Positions 10,637 through 43,257 of a stretch of DNA of 64,000 nucleotides are shown here, piece by piece; within the stretch, counting starts at the first letter, position 1, and every line of letters starts with the position of its first letter. Source of the stretch: Peptococcaceae bacterium CEB3 (GTDB lineage Bacteria > Bacillota > Desulfitobacteriia > Desulfitobacteriales > Desulfitobacteriaceae); contig LDXJ01000058.1 in assembly GCA_001029295.1 (NCBI GenBank), positions 1 to 64,000 on the forward strand, in the 5' to 3' direction. The notes beneath the pieces are model-generated. The model searched no databases, was not told the DNA's origin, and worked only from the letters and a program-made list of their open reading frames with translations. The position numbers and the translations under genes are program-made.

Positions 10637-11101
10637 ATGATGACAAATACTTATAGCTTTAAAGATGCCATAATTTTCGCAATCCATAATGAAGTGGAAG
10701 CCTATGAATTTTATCGCGATGCGGGTAAGAAAATAACTTCAGACCGCAATCTTGCGGATACATTTGAAGAATTGGCTGTCGAGGAACAAAAACACAGGGA
10801 TTTCTTACAGGACTACTTGGATGGAGACATGCCGGACTTCCAACTGAACGATTTTGATGATTATCATGTGTCAGAAGGTGTGGAGAAGCCAAAGCTTACT
10901 ACAAACATGAAGTTTGTTGAGGCCGTCGCTTTAGCGATGAAAAAAGAAGAAGAAGCCATGAACATGTACAAAAAGTTAGCTGCTTCCAGCGCCAACGATC
11001 AGCAAAAGGAACTCTTCTTAGACCTTTCGAGGATGGAAGAAATGCACAAGGTAAAATTGGAGAAGATTTACGTTAATGCCGCCTATGTCGAAGTCTGGTA
11101 A
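10637..11101 (+). CDS. Rubrerythrin/ferritin-like diiron protein
   Basis: A cytoplasmic four-helix-bundle protein of about 154 residues in the rubrerythrin-like ferritin superfamily. Both halves carry the metal-ligand pattern: AIHNEVEAYEFYR with VEEQKHRDF in the first, and AMKKEEEAMNMYKKLA with SRMEEMHKVKLEKIY in the second, i.e. paired E and ExxH motifs. There is no C-terminal rubredoxin domain, so it is a rubrerythrin-fold protein rather than classic rubrerythrin. Such proteins reduce peroxide or handle iron in anaerobes. The ATG at 10637 lies behind GAGGGGGG; an upstream frame start at 10622 overlaps that site. It is monocistronic, with its own promoter and the terminator at 11118-11149. 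Confidence 0.85.
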   Translation: MMTNTYSFKDAIIFAIHNEVEAYEFYRDAGKKITSDRNLADTFEELAVEEQKHRDFLQDYLDGDMPDFQLNDFDDYHVSEGVEKPKLTTNMKFVEAVALAMKKEEEAMNMYKKLAASSANDQQKELFLDLSRMEEMHKVKLEKIYVNAAYVEVW

Positions 11102-11117
11102 CAAGAACCGAAAGCAA

Positions 11118-11149
11118 CACCGCTGCTTAGAATTGCAGCGGTATTTTTC
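11118..11149 (+). terminator. Rho-independent terminator of the rubrerythrin-like gene
   Basis: CCGCTGC (11120-11126) pairs with GCAGCGG (11135-11141) across an 8-nt loop and is followed by TATTTTTCT. It lies 18 bp after the stop codon. Confidence 0.9.
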
Positions 11150-11239
11150 TATTCTCGGGACGATGGTTTCCGCCTGCTGGCCCAGAATCGTCTTGAGAAT
11201 ATGCGTGGGCAATTCATGGCTCCGCGTTAATCGATTAAG

Positions 11240-19954: not shown

Positions 19955-20063
19955 GCTCCTCACCTTCCCAGCACTCCTTGTCCTTCCTCAATACTTTCTC
20001 TATCATTCCCCTAAGCGTTATCTTCATTATCTTGGTGCTTTTTCTATCTTGGCGCTTTCTCGC

Positions 20064-24020: not shown

Positions 24021-24021
24021 C

Positions 24022-25122: not shown

Positions 25123-25126
25123 GTAC

Positions 25127-26311: not shown

Positions 26312-26473
26312 AAAGCCGTATCTTTCTCCTCTCCATGATTACGTTTGCCAAAATCCGCATCCCGGGCGATCCGCAAACATCCTTCCAACTCTTCAACGCT
26401 TATTCCGGCCCTGACCAAAATCCGCTTCACTTAACCACTGCTAAGACCGTTCCACCCTTCAACGCTTGTTCCC

Positions 26474-27946
26474 TCAACGCTTGTTCTGCCGCTGGGCTTT
26501 TATCCTCTGTTGTTTGCTCCCGATAACCGGCCAGGGCGCCCGCAGGAATACGTCCTGCCACTCCCTCCAGTGCAAAGTGGCCACCGGGGCAAAATAAGGA
26601 ACACCCAGGCTGTCCAGGGAACAGGCATGGAGGAGAATAGCACTGGCCCCGAGGAGAAAGCCGTAGAGACCGAGAACAGAAGAGAGCAAAACGAGCGCAT
26701 AGGAGAAGATGCGCACCGTGGAGCGCAAATCTTCCGTAGGTATGGCAAAGGTGGAGATCGCAGTCAAGGCCAGGACAATGACCATAATCGGGGAGATAAT
26801 GCCGGCGGAAACAGCGGCTTCACCCAGGACCAAGGCGCCGACAATGCCGATGGCCGGCCCGATGCTGCGCGGAAGCCGCAGTGCGGCCTCCCGGAAAATG
26901 TCCAAAGCAATGAGCATGATCACGATCTCCACCACCGTGGGCACGGGGACATTTTCCCGGGCCGCGGACAAGGAGAAAAGGAAGCGCAAAGGCAGCATGT
27001 CCGGCTGAAAAACGGTAAAAGCCAGATAGAGGGCTGGCAGGGCCGCCGCGAGGATGTAAGCCAAGTAACGGATCCAGCGGATAATAGTCCCCACGAAAAA
27101 GCTCTGAAAATAATCGTCCGGAGACTGAAAAAAGTGCCAGAAAGTCGTCGGCAGGAGCAAGGCAAAAGGGCTGCCGTCAACCAGAACCGCGCCTCTGCCT
27201 TCCAGCATAGCCGCTACAACTTTGTCCGGGCGCTCGGTCGACTGGACCAAGGGAAAAGGAGTATAGGTATTACGGGCCAGAAATTCCGTCAGAAAGCCGG
27301 ATTCCTGCACACTGGGGAGCTTGATAGCACTCAGGCGCTTGCGGATCTCCGCCAGAAGAGCGGGCTGAATCTCTCCTTCCAAGTACGCCAAGGCAACCTT
27401 GGTATGGGATTTTTCCCCCAACTTGATCAGATGGATCTTGAGGCTGGGATTCTTCATCCGGCCGCGAATGATAGCCAAATTCGGATCCAGAGCTTCTGTG
27501 AAGGCGTCCTGGGGGCCGCGGATAACCGGCTCCGTTTCGGAACGCTCAATACTGCGATGTTCCACTTGCGCCGTCGCCGCGGGAAACGTCTCCGCTACCC
27601 CGTCCAGGAGAATCAGCGTGCTGCCGCCGGTGAGAGAAATCAAGGCTTCCGGCCAGTAGGTAAAAGCCTTTTCCGGCAGGAACGGCAGCCTATCCCGGAT
27701 AGCCTCAGGAAAAAAACCCCGTTCCGGCCTCATCTCCAAGCGGTAAAGAGCGGGCAGGACGGTCTGGCTGAGGTATTTTTGGTCGGTTGAGAGAGCAGAA
27801 TAGACGAGCATACCCGGGATATCGGCCGCGGTCCGGAACGGGCGGAAGACAAAGTCATCACAACCCTTAAGCGTCTGGTGCAGGTAGATAAGATTTTCCT
27901 CTAAAGAAAGCTTGATGGCATCCGGCGACGAAGCAGTTTGGGACAT
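26474..27946 (-). CDS. Spore germination receptor A subunit (GerA family)
   Basis: A 490-residue A subunit. An N-terminal soluble domain of about 280 residues (containing VEHRSIERSETEPVIRGPQD, the signature region of GerAA/SpoVAF proteins) is followed by about five membrane segments from about 290 (with FSLSAARENVPVPTVVEI and IGPAIGIVGALVLGEAAV). It forms the oligomeric ion-channel part of the germinant receptor. The ATG at 27946 follows AAGGAGAG. It is the first gene of the operon A-C-B-B-small protein, and a candidate sigma-G promoter lies at 28105-28134, fitting forespore expression. Confidence 0.95.
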   Translation of the reverse strand: MSQTASSPDAIKLSLEENLIYLHQTLKGCDDFVFRPFRTAADIPGMLVYSALSTDQKYLSQTVLPALYRLEMRPERGFFPEAIRDRLPFLPEKAFTYWPEALISLTGGSTLILLDGVAETFPAATAQVEHRSIERSETEPVIRGPQDAFTEALDPNLAIIRGRMKNPSLKIHLIKLGEKSHTKVALAYLEGEIQPALLAEIRKRLSAIKLPSVQESGFLTEFLARNTYTPFPLVQSTERPDKVVAAMLEGRGAVLVDGSPFALLLPTTFWHFFQSPDDYFQSFFVGTIIRWIRYLAYILAAALPALYLAFTVFQPDMLPLRFLFSLSAARENVPVPTVVEIVIMLIALDIFREAALRLPRSIGPAIGIVGALVLGEAAVSAGIISPIMVIVLALTAISTFAIPTEDLRSTVRIFSYALVLLSSVLGLYGFLLGASAILLHACSLDSLGVPYFAPVATLHWREWQDVFLRAPWPVIGSKQQRIKAQRQNKR

Positions 27947-29446: not shown

Positions 29447-30793
29447 ATGAACAGTAACGGTTTCGGACCCAGCGAAAAGAAACGTGACCGAAATAATCCT
29501 GCAACTGAGGCAACTGATAATCGTACAAATGGAAAAAGGCAGGCTGAACTGCCCAGAAACTACGGCCATTGGGCCACTCTGACCTTGGTCCTGGTGAGCG
29601 TCGGCTTCCTCTTCAGTTATCCTTATCGGGGCGAATTCTGGGGTGGGCTGATATCCACGGCCTGCCGCGCGGGGATGCTGGCCGGCCTCGCCGACTGGTT
29701 CGCGGTCACCGCCCTTTTCCGCCGCCCGCTCGGGATTCGCCCGGGCCGGATTTTGCGCACCGAAATCATTCCCCGCAATCGTGAAAGGCTTTTTGAGGCC
29801 TTGGCGGATATGGTGGAAAATGATCTTTTAAGCAAAAAAGCCCTTAAAGAACGCCTCGCCCACTACAACAGTGCCGCTTTTCTCCTCGATTATCTGTCCC
29901 AGCCCGAAGTTTTGGCGGAATTGAGCACCTTCCTCGCCGGCCTGATCCGGGACCTGACCGGTCAAACTGAGCCACAGGCCTTGATTAACTTTCTGGAAGA
30001 GTTAACCTGTGAAGAGTTCCTCTTCGAAGACCTTACGCCGCTCTTAGTTGAGGCTCTGAACTTATCGGAAAAAAAAGGCTACCTCGAGCTTACGGCAGCA
30101 TTCGCCAACCGTTCGCTGCTTGCTCTTGTCGACTCGCCCCAGTTGAAGCAAGCCCTGGCCCTCTGGTTACAGAAAGCCTACCAAACCTATGAAGCGAGAA
30201 ATACCGCCCGCAAACTGGTTGACACCTTCCTCCCTTCGGCCGGAGAGCTGGCGGCTGCTGTACAGGAACAGCTGCGCCTTTTTCTCGCGGGCCCCGAAGC
30301 GCAAGAACTCCTCATGTCTTGGCTGAGGGAATATGCCGGCGAACTGGTCACTTCCCGGGCCGCCAGGACCAATTTGAGTCAAACCCTCTTTGACCTTCTA
30401 CGCCACACCCCATTCCGGGCCCACGGGCCGGGAAATGGCGAAGTGTCTTCCGCTAAAATCGGGACTTTCCGGACGGACGGTGATACCCTCAAACTCTTGA
30501 TCGAGGACGTCATCCGGGAAATCGTCATCACCCGAAGAAACCCCAAGTGGGAAGCCAACCTGGACAGTTGGCTAAAAGATTCCCTCCTCCGCTTCATTGA
30601 CACCCAGCACGCCATCATCGGTCACATGGTGAGGCAAAATTTAAAACCACTGAGCAACGAACGATTGGTGGAACTCATAGAATCCCGGGCGGGCAATGAC
30701 CTGCAAATGATCCGGATCAACGGTTCCGTAGTCGGCAGTCTGGCCGGATCGCTCATCTATTTGGTCAACTTTCTAATCCAGCAAAAGTGGTGA
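29447..30793 (+). CDS. DUF445 family membrane protein, first of a tandem pair
   Basis: A 448-residue protein of the DUF445 (YheB/YjiN) family. It has an N-terminal membrane segment (about 40-57), the strongly conserved motif GMLAGLADWFAVTALFRRPLG (about 75-95, slightly shortened here in words: LADWFAVTALF), a long helical middle, and the C-terminal family end NDLQMIRINGSVVGSLAGSL with a last membrane segment. The function of DUF445 is not known; the layout predicts a long helical domain between two membrane anchors. The ATG at 29447 is behind GAGGTG. Its stop overlaps the region before the second DUF445 gene, so the two are co-translated and may form a heteromer. Confidence 0.88.
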   Translation: MNSNGFGPSEKKRDRNNPATEATDNRTNGKRQAELPRNYGHWATLTLVLVSVGFLFSYPYRGEFWGGLISTACRAGMLAGLADWFAVTALFRRPLGIRPGRILRTEIIPRNRERLFEALADMVENDLLSKKALKERLAHYNSAAFLLDYLSQPEVLAELSTFLAGLIRDLTGQTEPQALINFLEELTCEEFLFEDLTPLLVEALNLSEKKGYLELTAAFANRSLLALVDSPQLKQALALWLQKAYQTYEARNTARKLVDTFLPSAGELAAAVQEQLRLFLAGPEAQELLMSWLREYAGELVTSRAARTNLSQTLFDLLRHTPFRAHGPGNGEVSSAKIGTFRTDGDTLKLLIEDVIREIVITRRNPKWEANLDSWLKDSLLRFIDTQHAIIGHMVRQNLKPLSNERLVELIESRAGNDLQMIRINGSVVGSLAGSLIYLVNFLIQQKW

Positions 30794-30798
30794 ACAAG

Positions 30799-32220
30799 AT
30801 GAACTACCGTCATAAAGCGAACGTTACCCTCGCTGTCGTCTTTTTGCTTTTTGTGCTTTCCACAATTTTTAAACTCAACGAACCCAGGCTCTTTTCCTTG
30901 CGGCTTTTGAATTTTGTGCTCGAGGCTGCTCTGGTCGGCGGAATCGCTGATTGGTTCGCTGTGACGGCACTTTTTCAACGCCCTTTGGGCTGGCCTTTCC
31001 ATACCGCTCTCATCCCCAGAAACCGGGATAAAGTCATTCTCTCGGTGAGCCAGATGGTCGAAAACGATCTGCTCAGCCTGGAACTCATCCAAGAAAAACT
31101 TGCCCGAGTCTCTTTTACGGATGGGCTCAGAGCCTGGGTCGAACAAAATGGTGGCGTGGCCGCTCTGACCCGGCTCCTCTTCATTTATTTGGACGAAAGA
31201 AAAGATAAAATCCCCGCCAGGAGTGCCCAATTTATCGCTGCCAAAATCAAGCAGGAAATCGGCAGCGCTTCTCTGGACCGGGAACTTTATAGACTGAGCC
31301 GGATATTCCCGACCGGCGACGGCCTCGATTACGCCCTCGATCAACTGCGCGGGATCGTGAACGGACCTCTGGTAAGAGAAAATCTTTACCGGCTTCTGTT
31401 GGACCAAAAAGAAACCCGGGAGGCCGATTCCCGTTTCAACCGCTATCTGCTCGATTTCGTCCAAAAAATCGACGGACTCAACTTGAGAGAAGCCGCGACC
31501 GTCTTGCAAAAACAGTTGGGCCTGGCCCTCCGGGAACTGGAGAACCCCAGCCATCCCTTGCGGCAGCGCATCCTAGAGCTTTTAGCCACGGAAGCGGATA
31601 CCCAATCTCTGGGACAAACACTGGAACAGTGGAAAACGGAGGTCCTCTTAAAGCTGCCCTGGGAGGAAACCTTGTGCCAATTTTTGACCACGGTCCTCAG
31701 CCAGGTCATGAACCCGCCTAAAGCGCCGACAGCCCCAGCCGCAGCCCCCGAAAATTCAGCACCGACGGTTGCCGGAGACCCCGTGCCCCAGCCGAACCCG
31801 ATACATACCGCAGAGAACCCTGCGCGGAACATTCCGGAGGATAAGGTTCTGCCGGAGAAAAATTCCCCGCTCTTTATCTGGCTCAGTGAAGGAGCCAGCC
31901 GACTGTGGCAGGACTTTCTCAAGGATCAACCTTTACAAAACCGCCTAAACGCCTATATCCGTTCCACCTTGGGCCGGCTGGCGGCCGCCGAGCACCGCAT
32001 GATCGGCAGTATTGCCAGGAACACACTTGAGTCCTTAAGCGAAACCGACTTGAATTCTTTCATTGAGGGCAAAGCCGGGGAGGACCTGCAGTGGATCCGG
32101 ATCAACGGTTCCCTCGTGGGTGGTTTTGCCGGTTTGTTCCTTTTCTTCTTTTTGGATCTAATCTATCAACCTTGGCTTCTGCCTCTCTTTCATCGCCTAT
32201 TCCCTTTTCTGAACCACTGA
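30799..32220 (+). CDS. DUF445 family membrane protein, second of a tandem pair
   Basis: About 473 residues, same architecture as the preceding gene: N-terminal TM (about 10-26, VTLAVVFLLFVLSTIFKL), the motif GGIADWFAVTALFQRPLG, a helical middle, and the end GEDLQWIRINGSLVGGFAG with a C-terminal TM. It differs by a proline/alanine-rich insertion at about 310-350 (AAPENSAPTVAGDPVPQPNP). ATG 30799 has GGTG 6 nt upstream; an in-frame GTG at 30787 has no binding site. The N- and C-terminal signatures are well kept between the paralogues while the middle differs, suggesting an old duplication with distinct roles. Confidence 0.88.
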   Translation: MNYRHKANVTLAVVFLLFVLSTIFKLNEPRLFSLRLLNFVLEAALVGGIADWFAVTALFQRPLGWPFHTALIPRNRDKVILSVSQMVENDLLSLELIQEKLARVSFTDGLRAWVEQNGGVAALTRLLFIYLDERKDKIPARSAQFIAAKIKQEIGSASLDRELYRLSRIFPTGDGLDYALDQLRGIVNGPLVRENLYRLLLDQKETREADSRFNRYLLDFVQKIDGLNLREAATVLQKQLGLALRELENPSHPLRQRILELLATEADTQSLGQTLEQWKTEVLLKLPWEETLCQFLTTVLSQVMNPPKAPTAPAAAPENSAPTVAGDPVPQPNPIHTAENPARNIPEDKVLPEKNSPLFIWLSEGASRLWQDFLKDQPLQNRLNAYIRSTLGRLAAAEHRMIGSIARNTLESLSETDLNSFIEGKAGEDLQWIRINGSLVGGFAGLFLFFFLDLIYQPWLLPLFHRLFPFLNH

Positions 32221-32378
32221 TCAAGAGCAAGAGGGTAAAGGAACATTCAAATGCATCTTTGGCATCTTGTGCATCTTTCGCACCTCACACGCGCATACTA
32301 GCCGTATGAGACGCTCAAATGCGTACCCGCTTTTGGGAGCATTTGCTTGCTCAATCTTTTGGTGGAGGAGGGCTATCA

Positions 32379-32798
32379 GTGAAAGGTATACCCGAGTTTT
32401 TGGGGGAATCCTCCTTGTTGGGCGTGGTTCTGGCCGGAACGGCCATCGTAGTTCTGGCTCCCGTCCTTAAAAACGTCGTTAAGGGAGTTGCGGTGACCAC
32501 GGTGAAAGGGGCGATGTCCTTGGCGCAAGGAGGCTCAGCCTTAGCCAATAATGTCAAAGAAGGATGGGAAGATGTCGTCGCCAAAGCCCAACAACAGAAG
32601 GGACTCTCCAGACCGGACATGAACACAGTCCTCGGCGCCGGTGCCGGCGGCGCGGTGGGAGCCACCATCGGCGGAATGGCCGGTCCCGTTGGCGCTGCCG
32701 TGGGCGGCGGTTTGGGAGGAGCGGCCGGTGCGAGTGCGGGCAAAACATCGGATAAGCAGCATGACGCGGCAAGCCCAGCACACCCGGCAAACCCATGA
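32379..32798 (+). CDS. Small membrane protein with glycine-zipper hairpin
   Basis: 139 residues from a GTG at 32379 behind a strong GGAGGAGGG; an ATG 60 bp upstream has no site. Segment 1 (about 13-30, LLGVVLAGTAIVVLAPVLKN) leads into VVKGVAVTTVKGAMSLAQGG and an acidic helix (EGWEDVVAKAQ). Segment 2 (about 88-122) is a glycine-zipper hairpin (GAGAGGAVGATIGGMAGPVG then AAVGGGLGG), followed by a polar tail. The first part resembles the proteins at 37459-37710 and 42955-43257 and, by memory, DUF5132-type proteins that accompany unusual P-type ATPases. It is the third gene of the plus-strand unit and faces the ATPase gene across the terminator at 32910. Confidence 0.75.
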   Translation: MKGIPEFLGESSLLGVVLAGTAIVVLAPVLKNVVKGVAVTTVKGAMSLAQGGSALANNVKEGWEDVVAKAQQQKGLSRPDMNTVLGAGAGGAVGATIGGMAGPVGAAVGGGLGGAAGASAGKTSDKQHDAASPAHPANP

Positions 32799-32909
32799 AA
32801 GCAGGGATTCTCTTGACCGCAATTTCCCGTCATCCCAAGCGGAAAGCGGGGAATACCGTGACCCTTGTGACTTTGCTGAGTGCCGATAAAAACTGTTCTG
32901 GTTAGGCGA

Positions 32910-32942
32910 GAATAAGCTCCGAAGACTTTTCGGAGCTTATTC
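32910..32942. terminator. Bidirectional terminator between convergent units
   Basis: GAATAAGCTCCGAA (32910-32923) pairs perfectly with TTCGGAGCTTATTC (32929-32942) across GACTT. It ends the plus-strand DUF445 unit and probably the minus-strand ATPase unit. Confidence 0.8.
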
Positions 32943-33061
32943 TTTACGTCCGGCCCTCGAAGAAGGGCAGACGGTGCAATCCCTTGTCAGACGGAACAAG
33001 GTACAGTGTGGACTCGAACTCAGTTCGGCCGGACCCAGTGGGCAATACTTCCATCAGGAAG

Positions 33062-35488
33062 CTACGGTACCGGTACTACCGGCGGCAGGCTCCCTCCGTA
33101 TAGCAGTGGGGCATGCCTGACCTCCCCGACCCCGCCGGACACTTCCTCCGCCCAAGTTTTGCCGTAGGTATTGGCGATCACCGCTATGACCCCGATATTT
33201 CCCACGACTGAAGCGCCCACAGTCGTTAGAATGCCTGCCGCGCCCAGTCCCAAACCCGTGACATTCAGTCCGAAAGCAATGCTTAAATTTTGATTAATCC
33301 GCTCCTTTAGCCGTTGTCCCAAGTAAATCACTTCCGCCACTCTTTGCGGTTCGCGCTGCGGAATCACGATCCCCGCCACCTTGGCGGCGGAATCCACTCC
33401 CATGCAGCCGACGGCAATTCCCAACTCCGCCTCCGCCATGGCCGGAGCATCATCCAGCCCGTCGCCCGCCACCGCGACTTTGAACCCTTCTCCTTTGAGA
33501 GAGCGGACCAGAGCGGCCTTGTCTTCCGGGGTCAATTCCCCATAGTATTCAGTGATTCCCAGTTCATCCGCCGCCCGCTTTGCCGCCTCCCTCGTGTCCC
33601 TCGTCACGAGGACAATCTTCCCGATTCCGCCGGCGCGCAGGGCCGTGATGAGTTGGGCGCTTTGGGGCGAGATTTCCTCATGTACCGCCAGCAGAGCGCG
33701 AACTTGGCCGTTAACCGCTATAAAAACGGGATCAAGGCCCAAATGCTGATGGCGCCGGGCTTTGGCTTCAACCTTGGCCAGGTCCACTTTCTCCCTCTCC
33801 ATAAAGCGAAAGTTCCCGATCAGGACTTCTTCGTCTTTGAAGCGAGCCTTGACCCCAAAGCCGGAAATTTCCTCACTCTTCTCGGGCGCAGGCATGGGGG
33901 TGCCGTGCAGGGTCACGGCTTGGGCACGCAAAGCCTGGGCGACGGGATGACCTGCTCTCCTTTCGGCCGCGGCTGCAAGGCGAATGATTCCCGCTTTTGT
34001 GTACTCCCTGCCAATCACCGTGATCTCGCGAATTTCCGCCTTTTCCTCGGTGAGCGTGCCGGTTTTGTCGAGCACCAAGGCATTAATATCGGCCGCCGTC
34101 AGTAAGTGCTTTTCATCTCTCACATATATTCCGCGATCCAGGGCCTGGCCGACCGCCACCCCGGCCGCCGTAGGCAGGGCTAAACCAGCCGCGGCGGGAG
34201 CTCCGGCGAATAGGACAGCCAAAGTACGTTCGGCATCCCGGGTGAGAAGGAAGACACCCCCGGCCAGCAGGAGCGAGAACAGGACTATTCGGTCCATGCG
34301 CTCTTGGTACACCCGGTCGGCCAAGCTTTTGCGCCGTGCCGCCGAGCGAATCATAGCTCCGATCCGCGTCGACCGCCCGGTCCGCTCCACCCGGATGCGC
34401 AGATGTCCTTGCAGTACCTCCGAGCCCGCGAGCACAGGGTATTCCCGCCCTTTCCAGACAGGCCGGGGAATACCGGTTAATTGACTCTCACCCACGTCTG
34501 CCTCTCCGCCCGCGACCCGGCCGTCCACAGGAATAGTCTCACCCTGATGCACCGCAATCAGGTCGCCCGCAGCCAGGCGCCTGGTCGGCACCGGTACTTC
34601 GACCCCTTGGGCGATCAGCCAAGACCTTTGCGGCAAGATTCCGACCTGACGAATAATCTGCCGGGCCTTGGCCTGGTCTATCCCCATGGAAAGCTTGGAA
34701 AGGTGTACTAGTAAAGTCAAAAGCAGTCCCCCGATACTTTCCTGCAGCACAAGCAAAGTGAAGGAGAGCGCATTAATAATCGCGTCATAAGGTAAGCGTT
34801 TTGCCTGTTGCGGATGTTTCAACCCCCAGAGAAAAAGCGGATAAGCCGCAATCAGACCTACGACAGTGGCTCCGTCCGCGACCGCTTCCGAACCCACCAA
34901 GGGCGAGCGACCCAGAATTTGGCGCTTAAGTAAAAGCAGCACGAGAGTAAACCCGGTGAAAATCGTCTTCAGTGAACGCCGGGTTACACTGGGGCTTGTC
35001 AAGACTCCCCGCAGGTCCTCTCTTCCCCGCGGCGCCGCTTCGGGAGTGTTTACCCGTTCCGGAGCCTGCTCGCGCCCTGCCCGCTCTTCGTCGGCCAGAC
35101 GGCGCTGCCAACCGCTGCGCCGTCCTTCCTCAACGTGCCGGTCGCCGCCCCGCCAGCCCTGCTCAAGCATTCTGTGTTCTCTTGGAGCGGACCATGTCCG
35201 GACCGCTTCCCGAACGCCACGGCCTGTTTCTTGCTCGGGTTCGGAAAATCGCGCCTTCCTTTTTTCTTCGACACTCAGGATTACCCCCGGCTCATCCCAG
35301 TACTGGGAACTATACTCGACCAAAATAGTCCCCGTATGAACATTGACCCGAGCCGCCGAAATTCCGGGGGAACTCGCGAAATGACTGGCGATGGCCTCCG
35401 CCAACACAGGATCTCCCCTCAAGCCCGGCACTCTGAGCCGGATTCTCCCGGGAAGGGAGTGTACCGCTTTATTTCTTCGAGTCGCCAT
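33062..35488 (-). CDS. P1B-like P-type ATPase with HMA2-type N terminus and APA in TM4
   Basis: About 808 residues. Residues ~5-65 form an HMA_2-like ferredoxin fold without the CxxC metal motif (HSLPGRIRLRVPGLRG, then VNVHTGTILVEYSS), followed by a charged arginine/glutamate-rich linker (about 80-160). The ATPase core has LTGIP (actuator TGE variant), DKTGTLTEEKAEI near residue 472, AGHPVAQAL in the nucleotide domain and GDGLDDAPAM near 674. In TM4, where metal pumps carry CPC, SPC or CPH, the sequence is FAGAPAAAGLALPTA near 427, so no thiol or imidazole ligand is present. The catalytic residues are complete, so it should hydrolyse ATP. The transported ion is unknown. I prefer the ATG at 35488; the frame is open to 35689 with no good binding site. 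Confidence 0.85.
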   Translation of the reverse strand: MATRRNKAVHSLPGRIRLRVPGLRGDPVLAEAIASHFASSPGISAARVNVHTGTILVEYSSQYWDEPGVILSVEEKRKARFSEPEQETGRGVREAVRTWSAPREHRMLEQGWRGGDRHVEEGRRSGWQRRLADEERAGREQAPERVNTPEAAPRGREDLRGVLTSPSVTRRSLKTIFTGFTLVLLLLKRQILGRSPLVGSEAVADGATVVGLIAAYPLFLWGLKHPQQAKRLPYDAIINALSFTLLVLQESIGGLLLTLLVHLSKLSMGIDQAKARQIIRQVGILPQRSWLIAQGVEVPVPTRRLAAGDLIAVHQGETIPVDGRVAGGEADVGESQLTGIPRPVWKGREYPVLAGSEVLQGHLRIRVERTGRSTRIGAMIRSAARRKSLADRVYQERMDRIVLFSLLLAGGVFLLTRDAERTLAVLFAGAPAAAGLALPTAAGVAVGQALDRGIYVRDEKHLLTAADINALVLDKTGTLTEEKAEIREITVIGREYTKAGIIRLAAAAERRAGHPVAQALRAQAVTLHGTPMPAPEKSEEISGFGVKARFKDEEVLIGNFRFMEREKVDLAKVEAKARRHQHLGLDPVFIAVNGQVRALLAVHEEISPQSAQLITALRAGGIGKIVLVTRDTREAAKRAADELGITEYYGELTPEDKAALVRSLKGEGFKVAVAGDGLDDAPAMAEAELGIAVGCMGVDSAAKVAGIVIPQREPQRVAEVIYLGQRLKERINQNLSIAFGLNVTGLGLGAAGILTTVGASVVGNIGVIAVIANTYGKTWAEEVSGGVGEVRHAPLLYGGSLPPVVPVP

Positions 35489-35688
35489 ACGCACCCCCAA
35501 GATCGACGTTTTCAGATCGAAGTTTTCAACTGCGCTTAATTTTTCTGCAGTCAATTCGTCGGACAGCCAGCACTTGCCCTCTTTCCGGAGGACGATACGG
35601 ATGCTTTGACAGTCCTTAACAGATTCTCCACTCACAAACAACAATATGTAAATCGTCGGGCGGAAGGTTCTGCCAACTCCGGAGTGCA

Positions 35689-35756
35689 TTCGTTCAGCTT
35701 AAGCTGAACATCACTTTAGTGTCCTGTGGACTCGATCGCCGAACCGCAAGCTTTCA
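35689..35756 (+). repeat. Dispersed hairpin element, third copy
   Basis: CGTTCAGC-TTAA-GCTGAACATCAC followed by TTTAGTGTCCTGTGGACTCG and ATCGCCGAACCG matches the copies at 201-300 over about 60 bp. It lies in the gap between the ATPase gene and the terminator of the next minus-strand gene. Confidence 0.75.
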
Positions 35757-35793
35757 GCGAATACTTGTGCGGTGAGGATGCCGGATAAAAATA

Positions 35794-35810
35794 ACTGCCC
35801 GACGGGCAGT
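35794..35810 (-). terminator. Terminator after the coiled-coil protein gene
   Basis: On the minus strand ACTGCCCGTCGGGCAGT forms a tight 7-bp hairpin followed by TATTTTTATCC. It lies 66 bp after the stop at 35876, so the ATPase gene downstream needs its own promoter or read-through. Confidence 0.8.
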
Positions 35811-35875
35811 CATTCCCTATCCATCCGGATCATCTCCGTCAGGATCATTTCTCTTATCCAGGATCAATCATATCG

Positions 35876-36646
35876 TTAGGCTTCTCGGGCCAGTAACTCG
35901 GGTTCGTATGCGGACAGGGTTGCCTCCAGAACTTCCGTTTTGGCCGCAAACCGACGCTCAATAACTCTGTCATGCAGGGAGTAAAGGATCTGGGCCGCCC
36001 CGCGGCTCGCTTCGCGTTTCAGCCGCTCTTCCAGGGCCAAGAGAGCGCCCTCTCGACGCTGTTCCAGCCCCCGGGTCAATTCTTCTTTCTCCCACCGCGA
36101 ATCAATACCCAAAGAAGCGACCATTTTTTCCCCCGCCCCCGCTTGTTCGGCCAGTGCCGCCAAAAGGGGATGGGGAATCAGGCGATGTGCCGCTTCTCCC
36201 CACACTCTGCGGCTCCAATATTCAGCCTGCCCCGCCCAAAAAACGCTTCCCTCTTTTTCCGCCCGCCAGCCTTCTATTAGGCCTGACACATCCCCAAGAA
36301 AATCTTCCACCATTCGTTCTTGCCAGAGATCCGACGCAAGGTGCTCCTGTGCCAGCAGGCTTATGGCCTGTTCCCCGTCCATGTCGAAACGCCGCCCGAT
36401 CCGTTCCAGCAAACCTGCCTGCAGGGTTTGACGCAAATCCGCCAATTCTTCCATCAAAGCGGGAAGATCAAAACGGGATCCGGCGGCTGCGTGCCTGCGA
36501 CAGACTTCAAACCATCGCCCAATCTCATCTGTTAAGAAAGACAGCGTTTCGTCAACCGCCTCGACGGTCTCCCATTCCGCCCGTTGACGGCGGATTTCGT
36601 GCGCATAAAGAAGAACTTCTTTTTTGAATATCTCTTCTCTAACCAT
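35876..36646 (-). CDS. Cytoplasmic helical/coiled-coil protein of unknown function
   Basis: 256 residues, no signal peptide or membrane segment. Nearly all of it is predicted amphipathic helix rich in E, R, A, L and W, with long heptad-like stretches at the end (WEKEELTRGLEQRREGALLA, LEERLKREASRGAAQ). I do not recognise a family. The ATG at 36646 follows GGGGTGAAAAG. It lies 159 bp downstream of the glycine-zipper gene and ends at its own terminator (35794-35810). Context with two ATPases and small membrane proteins suggests a structural or adaptor role, which is inference only. Confidence 0.7.
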   Translation of the reverse strand: MVREEIFKKEVLLYAHEIRRQRAEWETVEAVDETLSFLTDEIGRWFEVCRRHAAAGSRFDLPALMEELADLRQTLQAGLLERIGRRFDMDGEQAISLLAQEHLASDLWQERMVEDFLGDVSGLIEGWRAEKEGSVFWAGQAEYWSRRVWGEAAHRLIPHPLLAALAEQAGAGEKMVASLGIDSRWEKEELTRGLEQRREGALLALEERLKREASRGAAQILYSLHDRVIERRFAAKTEVLEATLSAYEPELLAREA

Positions 36647-36805
36647 CTTTTCACCCCGGCACCAGATTTCTAACAGTATTTTAAATCAATCCGGAACCGG
36701 CGTTGTTAATTCTATGTAAAACTTAGGTCAACAAGTGAGATTTTCACCCGATCAATTTTTTCCAGTCGGCTTCAGGCCGGATGTCAGGTCTTGGTCATGC
36801 CTCGA

Positions 36806-37150
36806 TTACGTGTGGTTTTGCATGGGGTTACGTTCAGAGATTCCCTGAGGACTCCGCTCCGGAAACAGAGCCGAACCCGCACCCTGCCCCAGGGCTTGGC
36901 CCAGACGGTCCCCCACAATTCCTCCGAGAATCGTTCCGATGACGGCCCCGGCTCCCGGCAAAACGGCCGAGCCAAGGTAGGCCCCATACTCAAATCCTGC
37001 CATTAGACCCAAGGCTGAAGTCAGGTCGGAAGTCGTGTGTACGGCATACTCCCGGTCATCCAGACTGCCGGACCGGTGTGCCCCGACATCCCGCCACAGA
37101 GCGAAGCTCGCGGAAATAGCCCCGGCCCACAATGTTCCCTTACTAAACAC
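36806..37150 (-). CDS. Small membrane protein with glycine-zipper hairpin
   Basis: 114 residues from a GTG at 37150 behind AAAGGGGAAA. A short N-terminal hydrophobic stretch (GTLWAGAISASFALWRDVG) is followed by a charged loop and a long glycine-patterned hydrophobic hairpin at about 45-95 (LGLMAGFEYGAYLGSAVLPG, AGAVIGTILGGIVGDRLGQ, ALGQGAGSALF). G-x3-G spacing repeats through it, typical of glycine-zipper proteins that pack or oligomerise in membranes. The polar tail has no known motif. It comes 25 bp after the helical protein gene at 37176-37472 and belongs to the same minus-strand operon. Confidence 0.75.
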   Translation of the reverse strand: MFSKGTLWAGAISASFALWRDVGAHRSGSLDDREYAVHTTSDLTSALGLMAGFEYGAYLGSAVLPGAGAVIGTILGGIVGDRLGQALGQGAGSALFPERSPQGISERNPMQNHT

Positions 37151-37175
37151 GGTCGATTTCCCCTTTCACTTCCAA

Positions 37176-37472
37176 CTAACGGCGCAAGCGCGGAAAAGAA
37201 ATTAAGTTGAAAAGATTCACCCCGTATTGCTTCCCTTTTTCCCGCACACTGCCCAAAAAGTCCCCCAAGAAAAGTTCCCAGGCGCGGGCAAGCTCCTTCT
37301 GCGCAGCCGGTTCCCGGACGATCATCCGCACACTCTGCTCAATCGCTTGCTCCAGATGGGAAAGCGCTTCTTTTAAATGCTCATCAATATCCGGCAGCTC
37401 TTCCACAGCATCCCTTCTCCCGACTTTATTCTTTCCCCAGACCCGTTCAAACCAAGTTTCAGCGAGCGCCAA
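37176..37472 (-). CDS. Small soluble helical protein of unknown function
   Basis: 98 residues. An acidic N-terminal part (VEELPDIDEHLKEALSHLEQ), then a helical stretch (AIEQSVRMIVREPAAQKELA, RAWELFLGDFLGSVREKGKQ) and a basic end (LISFPRLRR). No membrane segment. I do not recognise a family. The annotated start is a TTG at 37472 inside the end of the upstream gene (14-nt overlap), and its ribosome site is poor, so the true start may differ. It is flanked by small membrane-protein genes in the ATPase operon. Confidence 0.6.
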   Translation of the reverse strand: MALAETWFERVWGKNKVGRRDAVEELPDIDEHLKEALSHLEQAIEQSVRMIVREPAAQKELARAWELFLGDFLGSVREKGKQYGVNLFNLISFPRLRR

Positions 37473-37710
37473 TCTCCCGATCCACTTCCTTTTTCAGACG
37501 TTCAAATTGCGCTTCGGCAACGATGTCTTCCGCTTCTTCCTTCGCCAATTCAAAGGTCGTTCTGGCCGCAGCGACTACCCCGACCACTCCCCGCAAACCC
37601 AAAAGAACGAGCGGTTTGAGGGCATCCCTGAGCACCGGCAACAGGGCAGGGGCCGCTACGACCAAGGCTGTCCCTGTGATCAAATCCGTTTTATCCAGCT
37701 CCTTCAACAT
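37459..37710 (-). CDS. Small membrane protein, DUF5132-like
   Basis: About 83 residues from the ATG at 37710, which has GAGGAGGT 8 nt upstream. One hydrophobic segment at about 9-42 (LITGTALVVAAPALLPVLRD then ALKPLVLLGLRGVVGVVAAA), followed by an acidic amphipathic helix (FELAKEEAEDIVAEAQFERL). The pattern hydrophobic-AP-x-L-K-P-x-hydrophobic-acidic helix matches my memory of DUF5132 proteins and resembles the genes at 32379 and 42955. The frame is open to an ATG at 37863 that overlaps the ATPase stop codon (ATGA), so a longer 134-residue form by coupled translation is possible. Confidence 0.72.
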   Translation of the reverse strand: MLKELDKTDLITGTALVVAAPALLPVLRDALKPLVLLGLRGVVGVVAAARTTFELAKEEAEDIVAEAQFERLKKEVDREIGAR

Positions 37711-37859
37711 AGCTGAAGACCTCCTCTGAGTTTCTTCCGTACTTACCTTCCCCTGAATTTCCTTGGCACTTCTACCCTCGTCTGAGTATCTTTCAACTCC
37801 CACCCTCCTTGTAAGTTTCTCATGCACCTTGCCCTCCTTCTCTCCATTGACCGACGGGT

Positions 37860-40800
37860 TCATTTCCCGGCCATCAAGGTGGGAATCCGGCCGGTGAAAT
37901 CTCCTCTTCCGGCTTTGGGCAGCACTCGGAGCTCACCCCCGGCTTGGCCGCCGGACGGCTCGTCCTCCGCCCCGGCCATGAGACTGAGAAACGGCTGGGC
38001 CAAGAGGGATACCGTTCCCGCCAAGAGGAAAATCAGGAGCCAGTGCCGGACCTGCAAGGGAGCCGTGTGGAAGAAACCGGCCACAGGAGGGATGTAAATG
38101 GCGCCAAGCAAAGCCAAGAATGAAGCGACCAAACTCCCGACCAAATAACGGTCCTTGACCGACTCCCGCACCCCACCGGAGGAACCTTCCTGATGCCAGG
38201 AAAAGGTCTGGCCCAACTGTCCCAACACCAAAGTGGTGAAAGCCACGGTTTGGGCAACGGCCAACGGTGCCCCGGCGCTCAGAGTCAGCCCGAACAGTCC
38301 CAGAGCGCCGGCCCCCAGGAGGAGCCCCCGCGTAACGACTTTGCGGTAGAGACTCCTGTCAACAATATCCTGGCGTTTTGTGTACTGCTTCGTATTGCCG
38401 GGATTCACCGCCAGGATCATGGCGGGAATCGCGTCGGTGAGGAGATTCATAAGCAAAATCTGAATCGGCACCAGGGGCATGGGCAAGCCTGCGATGACCG
38501 CCGTGGCCGTGACCAAGATCTCAGCCAGGTTCCCGGTCAGCAGACAGCCAATGGCTCTGCGCATGTTGGCAATAATCGTGCGTCCTTCTTTCACCCCTTC
38601 CAGAATGGCGCCGAAGTGATCTTTCTTGAGCACCATGTCTGCCGTAGCCTTAGTAACCTCCGTCCCCGTACCGCCCATGGCGATGCCGGTATTGGACTGT
38701 TTAATGGCTGGGGTATCATTCACTCCGTCTCCCGTCATGGCCACAATGTGGCCCGCTTTCTGGTAAGCCTTCACGATCCTCAGCTTATGTTCGGGAGTCA
38801 CCCGGGCAAAGATGGCCACCTGTTCCACCACTTGGGCCAGTTCCCGATCGGACAGTCCATCCAGTTCCTGACCGGTCATGACCCGGCTGCCGTCCCCACC
38901 CAAACCCAAGTCCCTGGCGATAGCCAAGGCGGTCACCGGGTGGTCCCCCGTAATCATCACGGGTTTAACCCCGAGGGCATAAGCCTCGCGAATGCTCGCT
39001 TCCACCTCCGGCTTGGCAGGATCCATCATGCCAGCCAATCCAACATAGATCAGCTCGTCGTCGACCCCGGGACCGGGCTCTTGCGTATCTACCCATTCCG
39101 TGGGGCAGTAGGCAAAGCCCAAAACCCGCAGGGCATCACTGGCCAGCTTTTCGTTCTGCCGGTAAATGAGTTCTTTTTTGGCCTCCGTCATGGGATAGAT
39201 GGCCCCATCCTCCTGATAATGACTGCAACGCCGGAGCACGGTTTCCACAGAACCTTTGCAGAACACAAAACAGTCCGTGTCCTGACGCGTGTCCCGGCAG
39301 ACAACACTCATGGTACCCGCCTTGGAATCGAACGGCACCTCGTGAACCCGGTGCCAATGTCCCATAGTTTCCGCGCGCACTCCCGCTTTGGCGGCAAGTG
39401 TGAGCAGTGCCCCTTCTGTCGGGTCCCCTCTGACGGCCCATCTTTCTCCTTCCCGCTCTAACCGGCTGTTATTGCAAAGCAAGGCAATGGTGGTCAAGCG
39501 TTCAAGTTCCGGACTGTATGACTGGGCCGGCTCCGACTGAGGCAGACACACGATCTCTCCGGTCGGTTCATACCCTTCTCCGGTCACTTTCCAAGTACGG
39601 TTAGCCGTCACGATCCGGGTAACCGTCATTTCATTCTTGGTCAGAGTTCCGGTCTTATCGGTGCAGATAACCGTGGTCCTGCCCAACGTCTCCAGAGCGG
39701 AGAGTTTGCGGATGAGGGCATGATGCTTGGCCATCCGATAGATTCCGGCGCTGAGCGCGATGGTGATGGTCACCGGAAGCCCTTCCGGAACGGCCGAAGC
39801 GGCCAGGGTGATAGAAGTCGTAATCATCTCTGTCAGGGGCCTTCCCCGCAGGAGCCCCACCACGAAGACCAGTGCGCCGGCTAAGGCGGCTCCCTTGACA
39901 AACATTTTGCTGATACCCGTCACTTTATCGTGCAAAGGGGTGCTCACGACATCCTGGTTTTTCATCAAAGACATAAGATGTCCGATCTCAGTTTGCATTC
40001 CCGTTCCGACGACCACGCCGTTTCCCTTGCCCCGCGTGACGTCCGTACCCATAAATAACATGTTCGTCTGTTCTGCCAGCGGACAGCCATCCTGAAGGCC
40101 CTGAGGATTCTTGCCTACCGGCAGAGATTCCCCCGAAAGTGCCGATTCATTAACTTCCAAATTCCAGGACTGGAGAAGGCGCAAATCCGCGGGCACCCGA
40201 TCACCGGCTTCCAACCTCACGATATCCCCCGGCACCAATTCGGTGCCTACGACGACCGCCTCCTGACCGCCGCGCACAACCCGGCAGGAAGGGGGCTGGA
40301 ATTGGTTGAGCGCATCGATAACGCGCTCCGCCTTGCGTTCCTGCAGGGTGCCGATGGCCGCATTGGCCAGCAGAATTGCCCCCATAGCCAAACCGTCGAA
40401 GACGGCCCCCGTGACTAGAGCTAAGACCGATGTCCCCAAAACGATCAAGGTGGTGAACTCGGTAAACTGGGCTAGATAGGATACGAGCCAGGGCCGGGTT
40501 TTTTTAGGCTCCAGATGGTTCGGCCCGTACTCTTTGCGCAGCACCTCCACCTGTTGGGGCGAGAGACCCCGGTCTTCGCTGACTGCAAAACGGTGCAAGA
40601 CTTCATCCGTACTCGTGCAATACCAGCGCCCCGCCTGATTCTTGGGCAACCGTGCCGCCTTGGGCTCTTTCGCATCTCTTGCCGGTACGCTCTCTCCACT
40701 CAAAGTTTGGCCGGCCCGCTTGCTGTCGGCCATGAAGGCCAGCGTCAGCGCATCGGTCAGAAGCTTGGCCATCGGTGCCGTTATAACGCCTAAAGCCGCC

Positions 40801-42689
40801 AAACCCATCCCCGCATAATTCCACAACCTGGAAAAACGGAAGTGCCGGGTGATGACCGCGTTCATAGATCGGGCGTAGGCCAGAGAACGGTTGAAGGCCG
40901 AAATTTTCTCCGGCGCTGCCAAGGGCACTCCCGCCAAGGACCCTTCCTCATCTTGCCCGATGAAAAAGACCTCTTCACCCCGTTCGCGTGCAACTGCCAA
41001 CATCTCCCAAGTATCGGAAGTTGTGCCAGGCAGAATTCCGTCGATTCCGCACTCTCTCAACTCCTCTTCACTGAGGCCCGAAGTGTTATTTAGTACCCCA
41101 GTCTTGACCCCTATACTCCGCCAGTAGTTTAAACCTTGGGCAAGTTCCGGCGGAGTTTCACCTTTGTACCTCGTCAAGACGCCAAGATAATTAGAATCCC
41201 GGGCCAGGCAGAAGACTTCATGCCCAGTACGTTGAAGCCTGCGAATCTCCACCAGATGGGAATCACAATCCACCCCGTTTTCCTGCAAGTATTCCAGGCT
41301 GCCAAGGAGAACTTCGGAACCCCGGATTGTTCCTTTCACTCCGTTTATCCCGCGTTCGACTTTGAAAGCGGTTCGGATCGTCCCTCCGAACCTTGATGCC
41401 CTGCTTAAAACCTCCTCCAGCCAAGGATGCTGCGCCCGCTTCATCAAGGATGCCGCCAAACGCCACACTTCGTCCTCATTTTCCGGATCAGCCGAACAGC
41501 GTATTTCTTCCTCGCTCCCTTGTCGCAGAAGTGCGCTGTCTGTCAGCACAACTTGTTTAACCTGAGCAAGCTGCGCCAGTGACATGCCGTCCGGAATAAA
41601 GCAACCCTTTTCCTTGGCGGTCCACTGCGCCTGTTCCCAGGTATAGCGGGCAGGAACCGTAGCCACTCGCGGACTCCCCGCGAGCAGAACCCCCAACCCT
41701 CGTGACGGTTGTCCGCTCAGCACCGCGGCCCCTGCGGCAAGGGCAAGATGAGGTTTGCCAACCCGGCCGGCGTAAGCTTGAATTTCCGGGCTGTTCTGCC
41801 ACTCCTCCGGGAACCCGGCCCTTCCGCTTTGCTCCACTTGCCGGTGGAGGTACTGGATGAGCGCAATTCCCGCCAGAACCACGAGGTTTTCCCGGGCCAA
41901 GGCTAAACCAAGAGTCACCGCTCCCAGCAAAGCCTCTCCGCGCCAGCCGTCTGCCCCAGACAGAGGCGTACGGGGCCGTGGTCCCCGGCTTGCAATGTCA
42001 GGCCGGCCTCCTCCGGAAAACGACGGCACATCCTCCGCAGAGACCGGCGGGACAGAACCCGACCCCGACAGGTCCTCAACCTGCCTGCGCGCCGGCGGAT
42101 AGTCGCGCAAAACAGCCACCAAAGCCGCCAAGTAGAACAAAGCGGGGACCTCGGCCAAAGCGGATTTACCCATAAACACCCGTTTTACGGCCAGAATCCC
42201 CAACCCGGCAACGGAGAGCACCAGAGCCGGATAGCGGCCGACCCCCGCAAGGCCGCCCCAGGCCAGGCTCATCCCGGCCTGGCCTATCCCTGCCTGGCCT
42301 GGGGCTGGCGAACCCGCGGCGGCAGCGGTCTGATCCCAGTTTCGGTTAAAAGCGCGGTAACCCATTTCCGCCCCGCATACACTTGCGTTCGGGCCCCGCT
42401 CCCGGCCATCGATCCGCCGGATTTCAGAAGGCGTCGTCTCCAGCTTCTCGATCATGACCAGAAGATCACCGAGACCGATCCGTTCCTCATCGAAAAGAAT
42501 AAGCATCCGGCCCGTATGGGCACTGGGGGAGATTTCCTCCACCCCCGGACAAATGCTGAGAGTCTCCAGCAAGAGCCGAACCAAGGCCAAATTGCCTTTC
42601 AGCCCTTGTACGCCGAGGCGGATTCTCCCCGGCAAAACCCGAATAAATCTTCCTTCTTCCTTTGCTTCGGCCAGACGCCCCAGACCCAT
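37860..42689 (-). CDS. Giant fused P-type ATPase: dead P1B-like half plus active P2-like pump (CtpI-like)
   Basis: About 1,609 residues. (1) HMA_2-like N-terminal fold at about 12-80 (RVLPGRIRLGVQGLKG, no CxxC). (2) A whole but inactive P1B-like ATPase at about 130-670: DKTGT is replaced by TDSALLRQG near 381, TM4 reads AGSPRVATVP near 333, HP is kept in AQHPWLEE, and GDGxND is lost (GQDEEGSLAG). (3) From about 696 a full P2-type cation ATPase: N-terminal LSPQQVEVLRKEYGPNHLE, GESLPVGK, TM4 [27 protein letters not shown] near 1009 and TGDGVNDTPAIKQ. This is the architecture of mycobacterial CtpI/CtpH. The ATG at 42689 has GGAGG 5 nt upstream; a GTG at 42716 opens the frame. It is the first gene of the minus-strand cluster. 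Confidence 0.88.
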   Translation of the reverse strand: MGLGRLAEAKEEGRFIRVLPGRIRLGVQGLKGNLALVRLLLETLSICPGVEEISPSAHTGRMLILFDEERIGLGDLLVMIEKLETTPSEIRRIDGRERGPNASVCGAEMGYRAFNRNWDQTAAAAGSPAPGQAGIGQAGMSLAWGGLAGVGRYPALVLSVAGLGILAVKRVFMGKSALAEVPALFYLAALVAVLRDYPPARRQVEDLSGSGSVPPVSAEDVPSFSGGGRPDIASRGPRPRTPLSGADGWRGEALLGAVTLGLALARENLVVLAGIALIQYLHRQVEQSGRAGFPEEWQNSPEIQAYAGRVGKPHLALAAGAAVLSGQPSRGLGVLLAGSPRVATVPARYTWEQAQWTAKEKGCFIPDGMSLAQLAQVKQVVLTDSALLRQGSEEEIRCSADPENEDEVWRLAASLMKRAQHPWLEEVLSRASRFGGTIRTAFKVERGINGVKGTIRGSEVLLGSLEYLQENGVDCDSHLVEIRRLQRTGHEVFCLARDSNYLGVLTRYKGETPPELAQGLNYWRSIGVKTGVLNNTSGLSEEELRECGIDGILPGTTSDTWEMLAVARERGEEVFFIGQDEEGSLAGVPLAAPEKISAFNRSLAYARSMNAVITRHFRFSRLWNYAGMGLAALGVITAPMAKLLTDALTLAFMADSKRAGQTLSGESVPARDAKEPKAARLPKNQAGRWYCTSTDEVLHRFAVSEDRGLSPQQVEVLRKEYGPNHLEPKKTRPWLVSYLAQFTEFTTLIVLGTSVLALVTGAVFDGLAMGAILLANAAIGTLQERKAERVIDALNQFQPPSCRVVRGGQEAVVVGTELVPGDIVRLEAGDRVPADLRLLQSWNLEVNESALSGESLPVGKNPQGLQDGCPLAEQTNMLFMGTDVTRGKGNGVVVGTGMQTEIGHLMSLMKNQDVVSTPLHDKVTGISKMFVKGAALAGALVFVVGLLRGRPLTEMITTSITLAASAVPEGLPVTITIALSAGIYRMAKHHALIRKLSALETLGRTTVICTDKTGTLTKNEMTVTRIVTANRTWKVTGEGYEPTGEIVCLPQSEPAQSYSPELERLTTIALLCNNSRLEREGERWAVRGDPTEGALLTLAAKAGVRAETMGHWHRVHEVPFDSKAGTMSVVCRDTRQDTDCFVFCKGSVETVLRRCSHYQEDGAIYPMTEAKKELIYRQNEKLASDALRVLGFAYCPTEWVDTQEPGPGVDDELIYVGLAGMMDPAKPEVEASIREAYALGVKPVMITGDHPVTALAIARDLGLGGDGSRVMTGQELDGLSDRELAQVVEQVAIFARVTPEHKLRIVKAYQKAGHIVAMTGDGVNDTPAIKQSNTGIAMGGTGTEVTKATADMVLKKDHFGAILEGVKEGRTIIANMRRAIGCLLTGNLAEILVTATAVIAGLPMPLVPIQILLMNLLTDAIPAMILAVNPGNTKQYTKRQDIVDRSLYRKVVTRGLLLGAGALGLFGLTLSAGAPLAVAQTVAFTTLVLGQLGQTFSWHQEGSSGGVRESVKDRYLVGSLVASFLALLGAIYIPPVAGFFHTAPLQVRHWLLIFLLAGTVSLLAQPFLSLMAGAEDEPSGGQAGGELRVLPKAGRGDFTGRIPTLMAGK

Positions 42690-42740
42690 AAATTCCTCCC
42701 GCATCCGGTAGACCACTCCATCCCGCTTTATCTTAGCCCC

Positions 42741-42766
42741 CGCAGACTTATGCTTTCAGATAAGGA
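42741..42766 (+). repeat. Diverged third copy of the 28-bp element from the window start
   Basis: CGCAGACTTATGCTTTCAG followed by ATAAGGA matches GCGACTTATACTTTCTGATAGGA at 1-28 with a few changes. It lies just upstream of the giant ATPase gene and 190 bp before the plus-strand small protein gene. Confidence 0.5.
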
Positions 42767-42954
42767 CCCCCGTCAGCCATGAAGGCGGCGCACGTGAACA
42801 GCACTGTTGTTGTAAGGGTAACAGACTTTAGTATTCACGGGTCCGCCCGCAAATATGAGAGGTTAAGGCAAAAAAAGCATGCATAACCTCTGCCCAGCGG
42901 GAAACACTATGTCTTTAGCGAACAACATCATAACTTTTTGAGGGAGGGAAAACC

Positions 42955-43257
42955 ATGCTGGATTTTATCCGAAAATCTCCGCTGGGGTTTATTCTAACAG
43001 CAACCGCCTTAGTGCTGGTGGCGTCTCCTAAAGCCCGGGAAGCTGCCCGGAACTGGCTGGTGAAGGGGACGGCGACCATCCTCGATCTCGTCGACGAAAG
43101 CAAAGCCCCCGCAGCCACCCGCACCGCCGGGCAAACCAATGTGTACGAGATGGGAGCCTACCCATCCAAGGCAGAGCCCACCGCTGAGCAGGCTTCGCCC
43201 GGCCCCGGTCGTCCGGCACCCTCGCGGCCCGACCCGGATAATACCTCTCCGTCCTAA
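42955..43257 (+). CDS. Small membrane protein, related to the DUF5132-like members of the cluster
   Basis: 100 residues. One membrane segment at about 8-25 (SPLGFILTATALVLVASPKA), an amphipathic stretch (REAARNWLVKGTATILDLVD) and a disordered proline-rich tail (SPGPGRPAPSRPDPDNTSPS). The hydrophobic-SP/AP-basic-WLVKG pattern parallels the segment in the proteins at 32379 (VVLAPVLKNVVKGVA) and 37459 (VAAPALLPVLRDALKPLV). The ATG at 42955 is behind GAGGGAGG. It is divergent from the giant ATPase gene with a 265-bp shared promoter region, and ends at the terminator at 43353-43383. Confidence 0.75.
   Translation: MLDFIRKSPLGFILTATALVLVASPKAREAARNWLVKGTATILDLVDESKAPAATRTAGQTNVYEMGAYPSKAEPTAEQASPGPGRPAPSRPDPDNTSPS

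Follow-up and report, generated by a model that had tools for sequence, protein, structure and literature searches.

A conserved, apparently undescribed gene block of spore-forming bacteria built around a double-length P-type ATPase

We report that eight adjacent genes of Peptococcaceae bacterium CEB3, located at positions 32379-43257 of a 64,000-nucleotide window (contig LDXJ01000058.1, positions 1 to 64,000; coordinates below are those of this window unless a locus is named), form one conserved system of spore-forming bacteria that seems not to have been described before. The window's genome is 5.3 Mb in size and belongs to the same genus as Acididesulfobacillus acetoxydans. According to the explanation that we favour, with a little more confidence than doubt, the block specifies a membrane cation-pump assembly of endospore formers that is made in the forespore under sigma-G and serves divalent-cation handling in spore maturation or germination. 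We found no earlier description of the block in the literature (open-licence papers).

The first line of evidence is conservation of a five-gene core, comprising a small protein designated SPsmall (P0009), a fused ATPase of about 1,600 amino acids (P0008), a DUF5132 protein (P0007), a 76-amino-acid helical protein designated hel98 (P0010), and a glycine-zipper protein (P0006). The core recurs at about 47 loci across Bacillota. With the N-terminal half of the fused ATPase as query, a search of an 84,980-species collection gave 26 real loci, which range over Desulfosporosinus, Paenibacillus, Cohnella, Aneurinibacillus, Marinithermofilum, Melghirimyces, Metabacillus, and Ectobacillus. Hidden-Markov-model searches show that nearly every complete locus of the first set has all five core genes, and a second sample of about 24 loci, drawn separately, shows the core again, with the glycine-zipper gene more often missing. 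In one Paenibacillus family of 104 genomes, 28 carry hel98 and 27 carry the fused ATPase; hel98 occurs in 27 of 27 genomes with the fused ATPase vs. 1 of 77 without it (Fisher P = 4e-24). The preliminary description of this DNA had proposed that ATPases and small proteins should co-occur in other genomes, and the results indicate that they travel together as one system.

The full block shows the same pattern over a shorter phylogenetic range. Comparison by tblastn and of open reading frames (ORFs) shows that the gene order of positions 32379-43257 is kept in Acididesulfobacillus, in Desulfosporosinus, and in one member of another family: SPsmall divergent from the fused ATPase, followed by DUF5132, hel98, the glycine-zipper gene, hel256, a P1B-like ATPase, and a convergent DUF5132/glycine-zipper gene. 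This order was observed in genome G001, in two Desulfosporosinus genomes, in a third with the block over two contigs, and in the genome from the other family (G056), with fragments in G008. The sole two HMA_2 proteins and the sole DUF5132 hit of the window's whole genome sit inside the block. Because the order of the genes persists in two families and these hits are unique in the genome, the clustering is beyond chance. Three of the eight genes, hel256, P0004, and P0003, are confined to the Desulfitobacteriales version of the block. In a tree of P2A pumps, the Desulfitobacteriales fused pumps (L062, L063, and the window) nest among Bacilli pumps, near Aneurinibacillus, which suggests from sequence that the block was horizontally transferred. 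The Desulfosporosinus version at locus L047 has extra genes, for an unknown 196-amino-acid protein and a PHP-domain protein, at 10839-11429 and 13783-14550 of that locus.

The second line of evidence, which is regulatory, connects the block to sporulation and suggests that its expression probably starts within the forespore, a setting that the preliminary description had left out of account. To score sigma-G-type sites we used the pattern GNATR-N17/18-CATNHTA with a weighted score and a threshold of 10.5, fixed before the second set of loci. Between SPsmall and the pump gene, 18 of 25 first-set loci scored at least 10.5 vs. 9% of control ORFs (P = 1e-11, a value that, like the other P-values for sigma-G sites and for carriers, ignores relatedness of loci), with a spacer-length peak at 17 and 18. 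Among 26 other loci, 16 had such sites vs. 8% of controls (P = 2e-10), and the signal was far stronger at spacers of 17-18; the strict pattern, with zero mismatch, was present at 4 of 25 second-set loci. Patterns for sigma-K, sigma-B, sigma-A, and sigma-H showed no excess at the loci, and that for sigma-E gave one hit (1 vs. 0.2); a sigma-F pattern, raised in the first set (9 vs. 1.6), showed no rise in the second set and was rejected. Sigma-G itself was present above cut-off in all 30 carriers vs. 238 of 399 Bacilli genomes overall (P = 8e-8), and the sporulation-related neighbours of the loci include GerW, YtaF, and, in the window, a germination-receptor operon. In the window, sigma-G-like sites lie 5' of the pump gene (42829..42858, minus strand; TCATA-N18-AATACTA; score 10.2), 5' of SPsmall (42881..42909, plus strand; GCATA-N17-AACACTA; score 10.2), and 5' of P0003 (32271..32300, plus strand; GCATC-N18-CATACTA; score 11.7, the top of 57 window ORFs). 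YloB, a P2A Ca2+-type pump that Bacillus subtilis makes while sporulating and that influences both germination and the heat resistance of its spores (PMC10574481), sets a precedent for a P2A pump in sporulation; it differs in being single-length and without the block's partners.

The fused ATPase (P0008; 1618 amino acids; 37860..42716, minus strand) has one apparently live and one apparently dead half. Its C-terminal half (37863..40628, minus strand) is of the P2A (Ca2+/Mn2+) type, with ion-site and catalytic motifs intact: 24 fused proteins keep TGES/SGES, DKTGT, GDG[VI]ND, PEGLP, GNL(A/S)E, and N..TD, and the canonical P2A Ca2+ site residues, namely E in PEGLP, N..E in transmembrane segment 5, and N..TD in transmembrane segment 6, are all present. 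Pfam and NCBIfam recognise a P2A Ca2+-type ATPase and, more weakly, an N-terminal HMA_2 domain, and the closest solved structures to the C-terminal half are the Listeria Ca2+-ATPase lmo0841 (LMCA1) and human SPCA1. The fused C-terminal halves and the pumps of split loci (see below) form a clade separate from their relatives' housekeeping P2A pumps (Shimodaira-Hasegawa-like approximate likelihood-ratio support 99, in a quick tree built without bootstrap and without YloB itself).

The N-terminal half (40647..42716, minus strand) begins with HMA_2 (residues 27-92; 42441..42638, minus strand), which has the family's 'PGRxR' motif, here PGRIRL, and is without CXXC; a degenerate P1B unit follows, in which 'EDTSLL'-like letters stand in place of DKTGT. 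In an AlphaFold model (mean predicted local distance difference test score, pLDDT, 72), residues 163-369, the expected place of the actuator domain, contain helices only, and a Foldseek search returned CopA and ZntA at the top (E = 3e-14, with low TM-scores). We conclude from sequence and model that the N-terminal half is a predicted dead P1B-derived unit that carries HMA_2 and lacks an actuator domain and a phosphorylation motif. In searches of plasmids, DUF5132 gave no match and the N-terminal half gave generic P1B matches only; the actinobacterial plasmid P2A pumps found were single-length.

The architecture resembles that of CtpH/CtpI of Mycobacterium tuberculosis (TC family FUPA 24; PMC3573892), proteins that have been called uncharacterised (PMC10654040), in its twofold length, in the restriction of catalytic P-type motifs to the C-terminal half, and in a PEGL motif as in CtpI. 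It differs in occurring in spore-forming Bacillota, in having fixed small partners, and in having an N-terminal half recognised as a putative dead P1B unit. In four genomes (loci L148, L150, L154, and L158) the arrangement is split: the dead P1B half stands alone as a protein of 616-678 amino acids adjoining DUF5132, a live HMA_2-P2A pump with SEGLP replacing PEGLP lies near it, hel98 and SPsmall are mostly present too, and three of the four loci have an additional P2A-like protein without any catalytic motif. The split loci suggest that fusion joined parts that already worked together. Two genomes that have one copy of the split type carry a fused copy as well (L175 and L176), with exopolyphosphatase and polyphosphate kinase nearby. 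A related cluster in another family (L054, 3535-12250) has an HMA_2-P2A pump, a second P2A pump, a degenerate P1B ATPase of 590 amino acids, a DUF5132-like protein, and perhaps also a hel98-like protein.

The second ATPase, P0004 (33062..35488, minus strand; the ORF extends to 35689, and homologues place the probable start near residue 68), comprises HMA_2 and a P-type ATPase of P1B6-like type. It falls in a P1B6-like clade (support 99/100) that also holds DUF6110-adjacent pumps and the PacL-adjacent ones of Rhodococcus and Pseudonocardia, and its own group joins DUF5132-adjacent ATPases (support 96/92), in a tree with some long branches. All six members of the P0004 group retain HMA_2 and have lost CPC and TGE (TGI or SGK/SGI instead), and the Desulfosporosinus members have lost DKTGT too (DK[VI]PSL). 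The TGE glutamate is required for dephosphorylation of P-type ATPases, and a normal transport cycle of P0004 is therefore unlikely, as judged from its motifs. Tree and motifs together exclude an ordinary Cu/Zn pump. The description of both ATPases as non-standard stands: both lie apart from ordinary pumps for Cu or Zn and from housekeeping Ca pumps.

The block's small membrane proteins belong to a theme already associated with P-type pumps. SPsmall (42955..43257, plus strand; divergent from the pump gene) has a hydrophobic segment, an SP-basic hinge, and an amphipathic helix; P0007 (37459..37863, minus strand; DUF5132 above the Pfam cut-off) has a PacL-like hydrophobic segment followed by a Glu/Ala-rich helix; and P0003 (32379..32798, plus strand; alternative start 32319; convergent with P0004) has a DUF5132-like segment (weak, E = 0.011) and a C-terminal glycine zipper (E = 1.7e-5, above cut-off). 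The kinship proposed for these three proteins is upheld by profile comparison, which gave 94% for DUF5132a with the zipper-bearing DUF5132Gz, 93% for DUF5132a with DUF6110, 78% for SPsmall with DUF6110, and 87% for DUF6110 with DUF1490, vs. 0-2% for unrelated pairs, except 13% for two glycine-zipper families. DUF6110 is related to DUF1490/PacL and is reported beside P1B6 pumps (PMC9374683). P0003, P0007, and P0009 are, on these profiles, putative distant kin of the DUF6110/PacL scaffold proteins, and the window would add DUF5132 and SPsmall to the DUF6110/DUF1490-PacL theme. The small proteins gave no hit to the DUF1490 domain, to which their kinship is only distant, via DUF6110, and the P0003, P0007, and P0009 families have no His-rich metal-binding tail. 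The remaining membrane protein, P0006 (114 amino acids; 36806..37150, minus strand), matches a glycine zipper slightly below cut-off (E = 1.1e-4); its AlphaFold model was poor (pLDDT 65). The two helical proteins are hel98 (37176..37406, minus strand; about 76 amino acids from a homologue-based start probably near residue 23 of the 98-amino-acid ORF called at 37176-37472, minus strand) and hel256 (35876..36646, minus strand). Neither of them, nor SPsmall, has a significant Pfam or NCBIfam family.

The most recurrent specific neighbour of the block, recurrent in Bacilli, is the polyphosphate kinase PPK1. It adjoins 10 of the 23 loci in the first set, with neither side nor orientation fixed, and 5 of another 24; TIGR03705 was above cut-off in all four cases tested, and exopolyphosphatase lies near two loci.

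According to the favoured reading, the live P2A half would work in the direction usual for P2A pumps and expel Ca2+ or Mn2+ from the cytoplasm, either of the forespore or of the spore as it germinates. Dead P1B units together with PacL-like proteins would dock the pump and gather it into membrane patches, and, in many Bacilli, polyphosphate from the neighbouring kinase would act as counter-ion. The likely purpose would be divalent-cation handling by an accessory system present in a minority of spore formers. Several points weigh against this reading. The P-values for sigma-G sites and carriers are optimistic with respect to relatedness, the sites that the window itself has 5' of the pump gene and of SPsmall are moderate (10.2), and the positive control chosen for the promoter score, gerXA, came out low. 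PPK1 is absent from the window's genome, and therefore is no general requirement. The identity of the ion, Ca2+ or Mn2+, is inferred from motifs, and export from the forespore conflicts with the accumulation of Ca2+ in spores, which makes the timing, for example germination, a guess. A bolder form of the reading, which we put forward only tentatively and judge to fall short of even chances, is a machine of the forespore that uses dead P-type ATPases as scaffolds and combines one live Ca2+/Mn2+ pump with two pseudo-ATPases, PacL-like proteins, and glycine-zipper proteins. If this is true, the parts would build membrane patches or vesicles for the loading or clearance of divalent cations (in many Bacilli together with polyphosphate) during spore formation or germination, and the machine would be the spore's equivalent of effluxosomes, ferrosomes, or acidocalcisomes.

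The best-surviving alternative, which we nonetheless regard as unlikely, is a cation-storing compartment, like a ferrosome or acidocalcisome, in which the pump would fill vesicles with Ca2+, Mn2+, or Fe2+, the vesicles would be shaped by glycine-zipper and PacL-like proteins, and phosphate or polyphosphate would be the counter-ion. The presence of several glycine-zipper proteins and the recurrence of PPK1 and exopolyphosphatase favour it, and a Ca2+-type P-ATPase adjoining polyphosphate kinase in many Bacilli loci recalls acidocalcisomes and polyphosphate granules. The absence of PPK1 from this genome argues against it and weakens a polyphosphate compartment as the primary interpretation. The block has two features in common with ferrosome (fez) loci and DUF6110-P1B6 pairs: a P1B6-like ATPase whose HMA_2 domain bears 'GRxR', and small membrane proteins akin to DUF6110. 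However, P0004 looks inactive and branches outside the DUF6110-adjacent clade, as a sister group to these ATPases, which served as proxy for FezB, and no DUF6110 (FezA-like) protein is present in the window's genome or in G001. On these two tests we reject ferrosome membership. Of the proposal of a distant ferrosome member, what stands is placement in the P1B6-like clade of ferrosome- and PacL-type pumps; the idea of iron storage finds no positive evidence, and the pump's live half carries Ca2+/Mn2+-type P2A site residues.

Still less probable is a metal-resistance efflux platform that operates in growing cells, like mycobacterial PacL/CtpC, with incidental sigma-G-like sites. Such platforms are known in mycobacteria, as the PacL1-CtpC and PacL2/3 effluxosomes (PMC9374683, PMC13043812): PacL1 forms membrane foci with CtpC, and CtpC levels depend on PacL1 (PMC9374683). 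The likeness lies in a small protein with a hydrophobic segment and a Glu/Ala-rich helix beside a P1B6-like ATPase, and P0004 shares a clade with PacL-adjacent pumps. The block differs in that its small proteins are without the DUF1490 domain and the metal-binding tail, in that its P1B units lack catalytic motifs and seem inactive, and in that the live motor would be the P2A half; further, no metal-sensing regulator was recognised among recurrent neighbours (whose families were not exhaustively annotated), and the sigma-G signal is strong. A reading without any joint machine, in which the genes are inherited together but play separate parts in the spore envelope, is very improbable. In its favour, three genes occur in the Desulfitobacteriales version only, and the glycine-zipper gene varies in position. 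Against it, the core stays linked across distant families despite rearrangement, with near-perfect co-occurrence and patchy presence, and the small proteins are similar to a kind of protein that binds P-type ATPases (PMC9374683).

The inventory given in the preliminary description, of two P-type ATPases, four small membrane proteins, two helical soluble proteins, and two DUF445 proteins, corresponds to ORFs at or near the positions it gave. The tandem DUF445 proteins (29447-30793 and 30787-32220, plus strand; Pfam E about 1e-59 each), suggested there to be structural parts, are linked to the block within the genus only: they are present in G001 and absent from the block's flanks in G035, G036, and G056, and we rule them out as members of the system. 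Adjoining the pair is a germination-receptor operon (22923-27946, minus strand) of gerXA-, gerC-, and two gerB-like genes. Further away, at 16991-19963 (minus strand), the window encodes a CopA-like Cu+-type P1B ATPase of 990 amino acids with several N-terminal metal-binding repeats.

What is new here is a PacL-type pump assembly around a double ATPase, tied to sporulation; the fused architecture itself is known (FUPA 24). For a double pump of the CtpH/CtpI kind, the block supplies a fixed partner set, traces the puzzling N-terminal half to a dead P1B unit, and indicates the forespore as the likely site and stage of action. The idea that small proteins organise P-type pumps in the membrane would be extended from metal resistance towards spore biology. 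The block retains P-type pseudo-ATPases in conserved association with their partners, and it offers candidates for Ca2+ and Mn2+ handling in spores.

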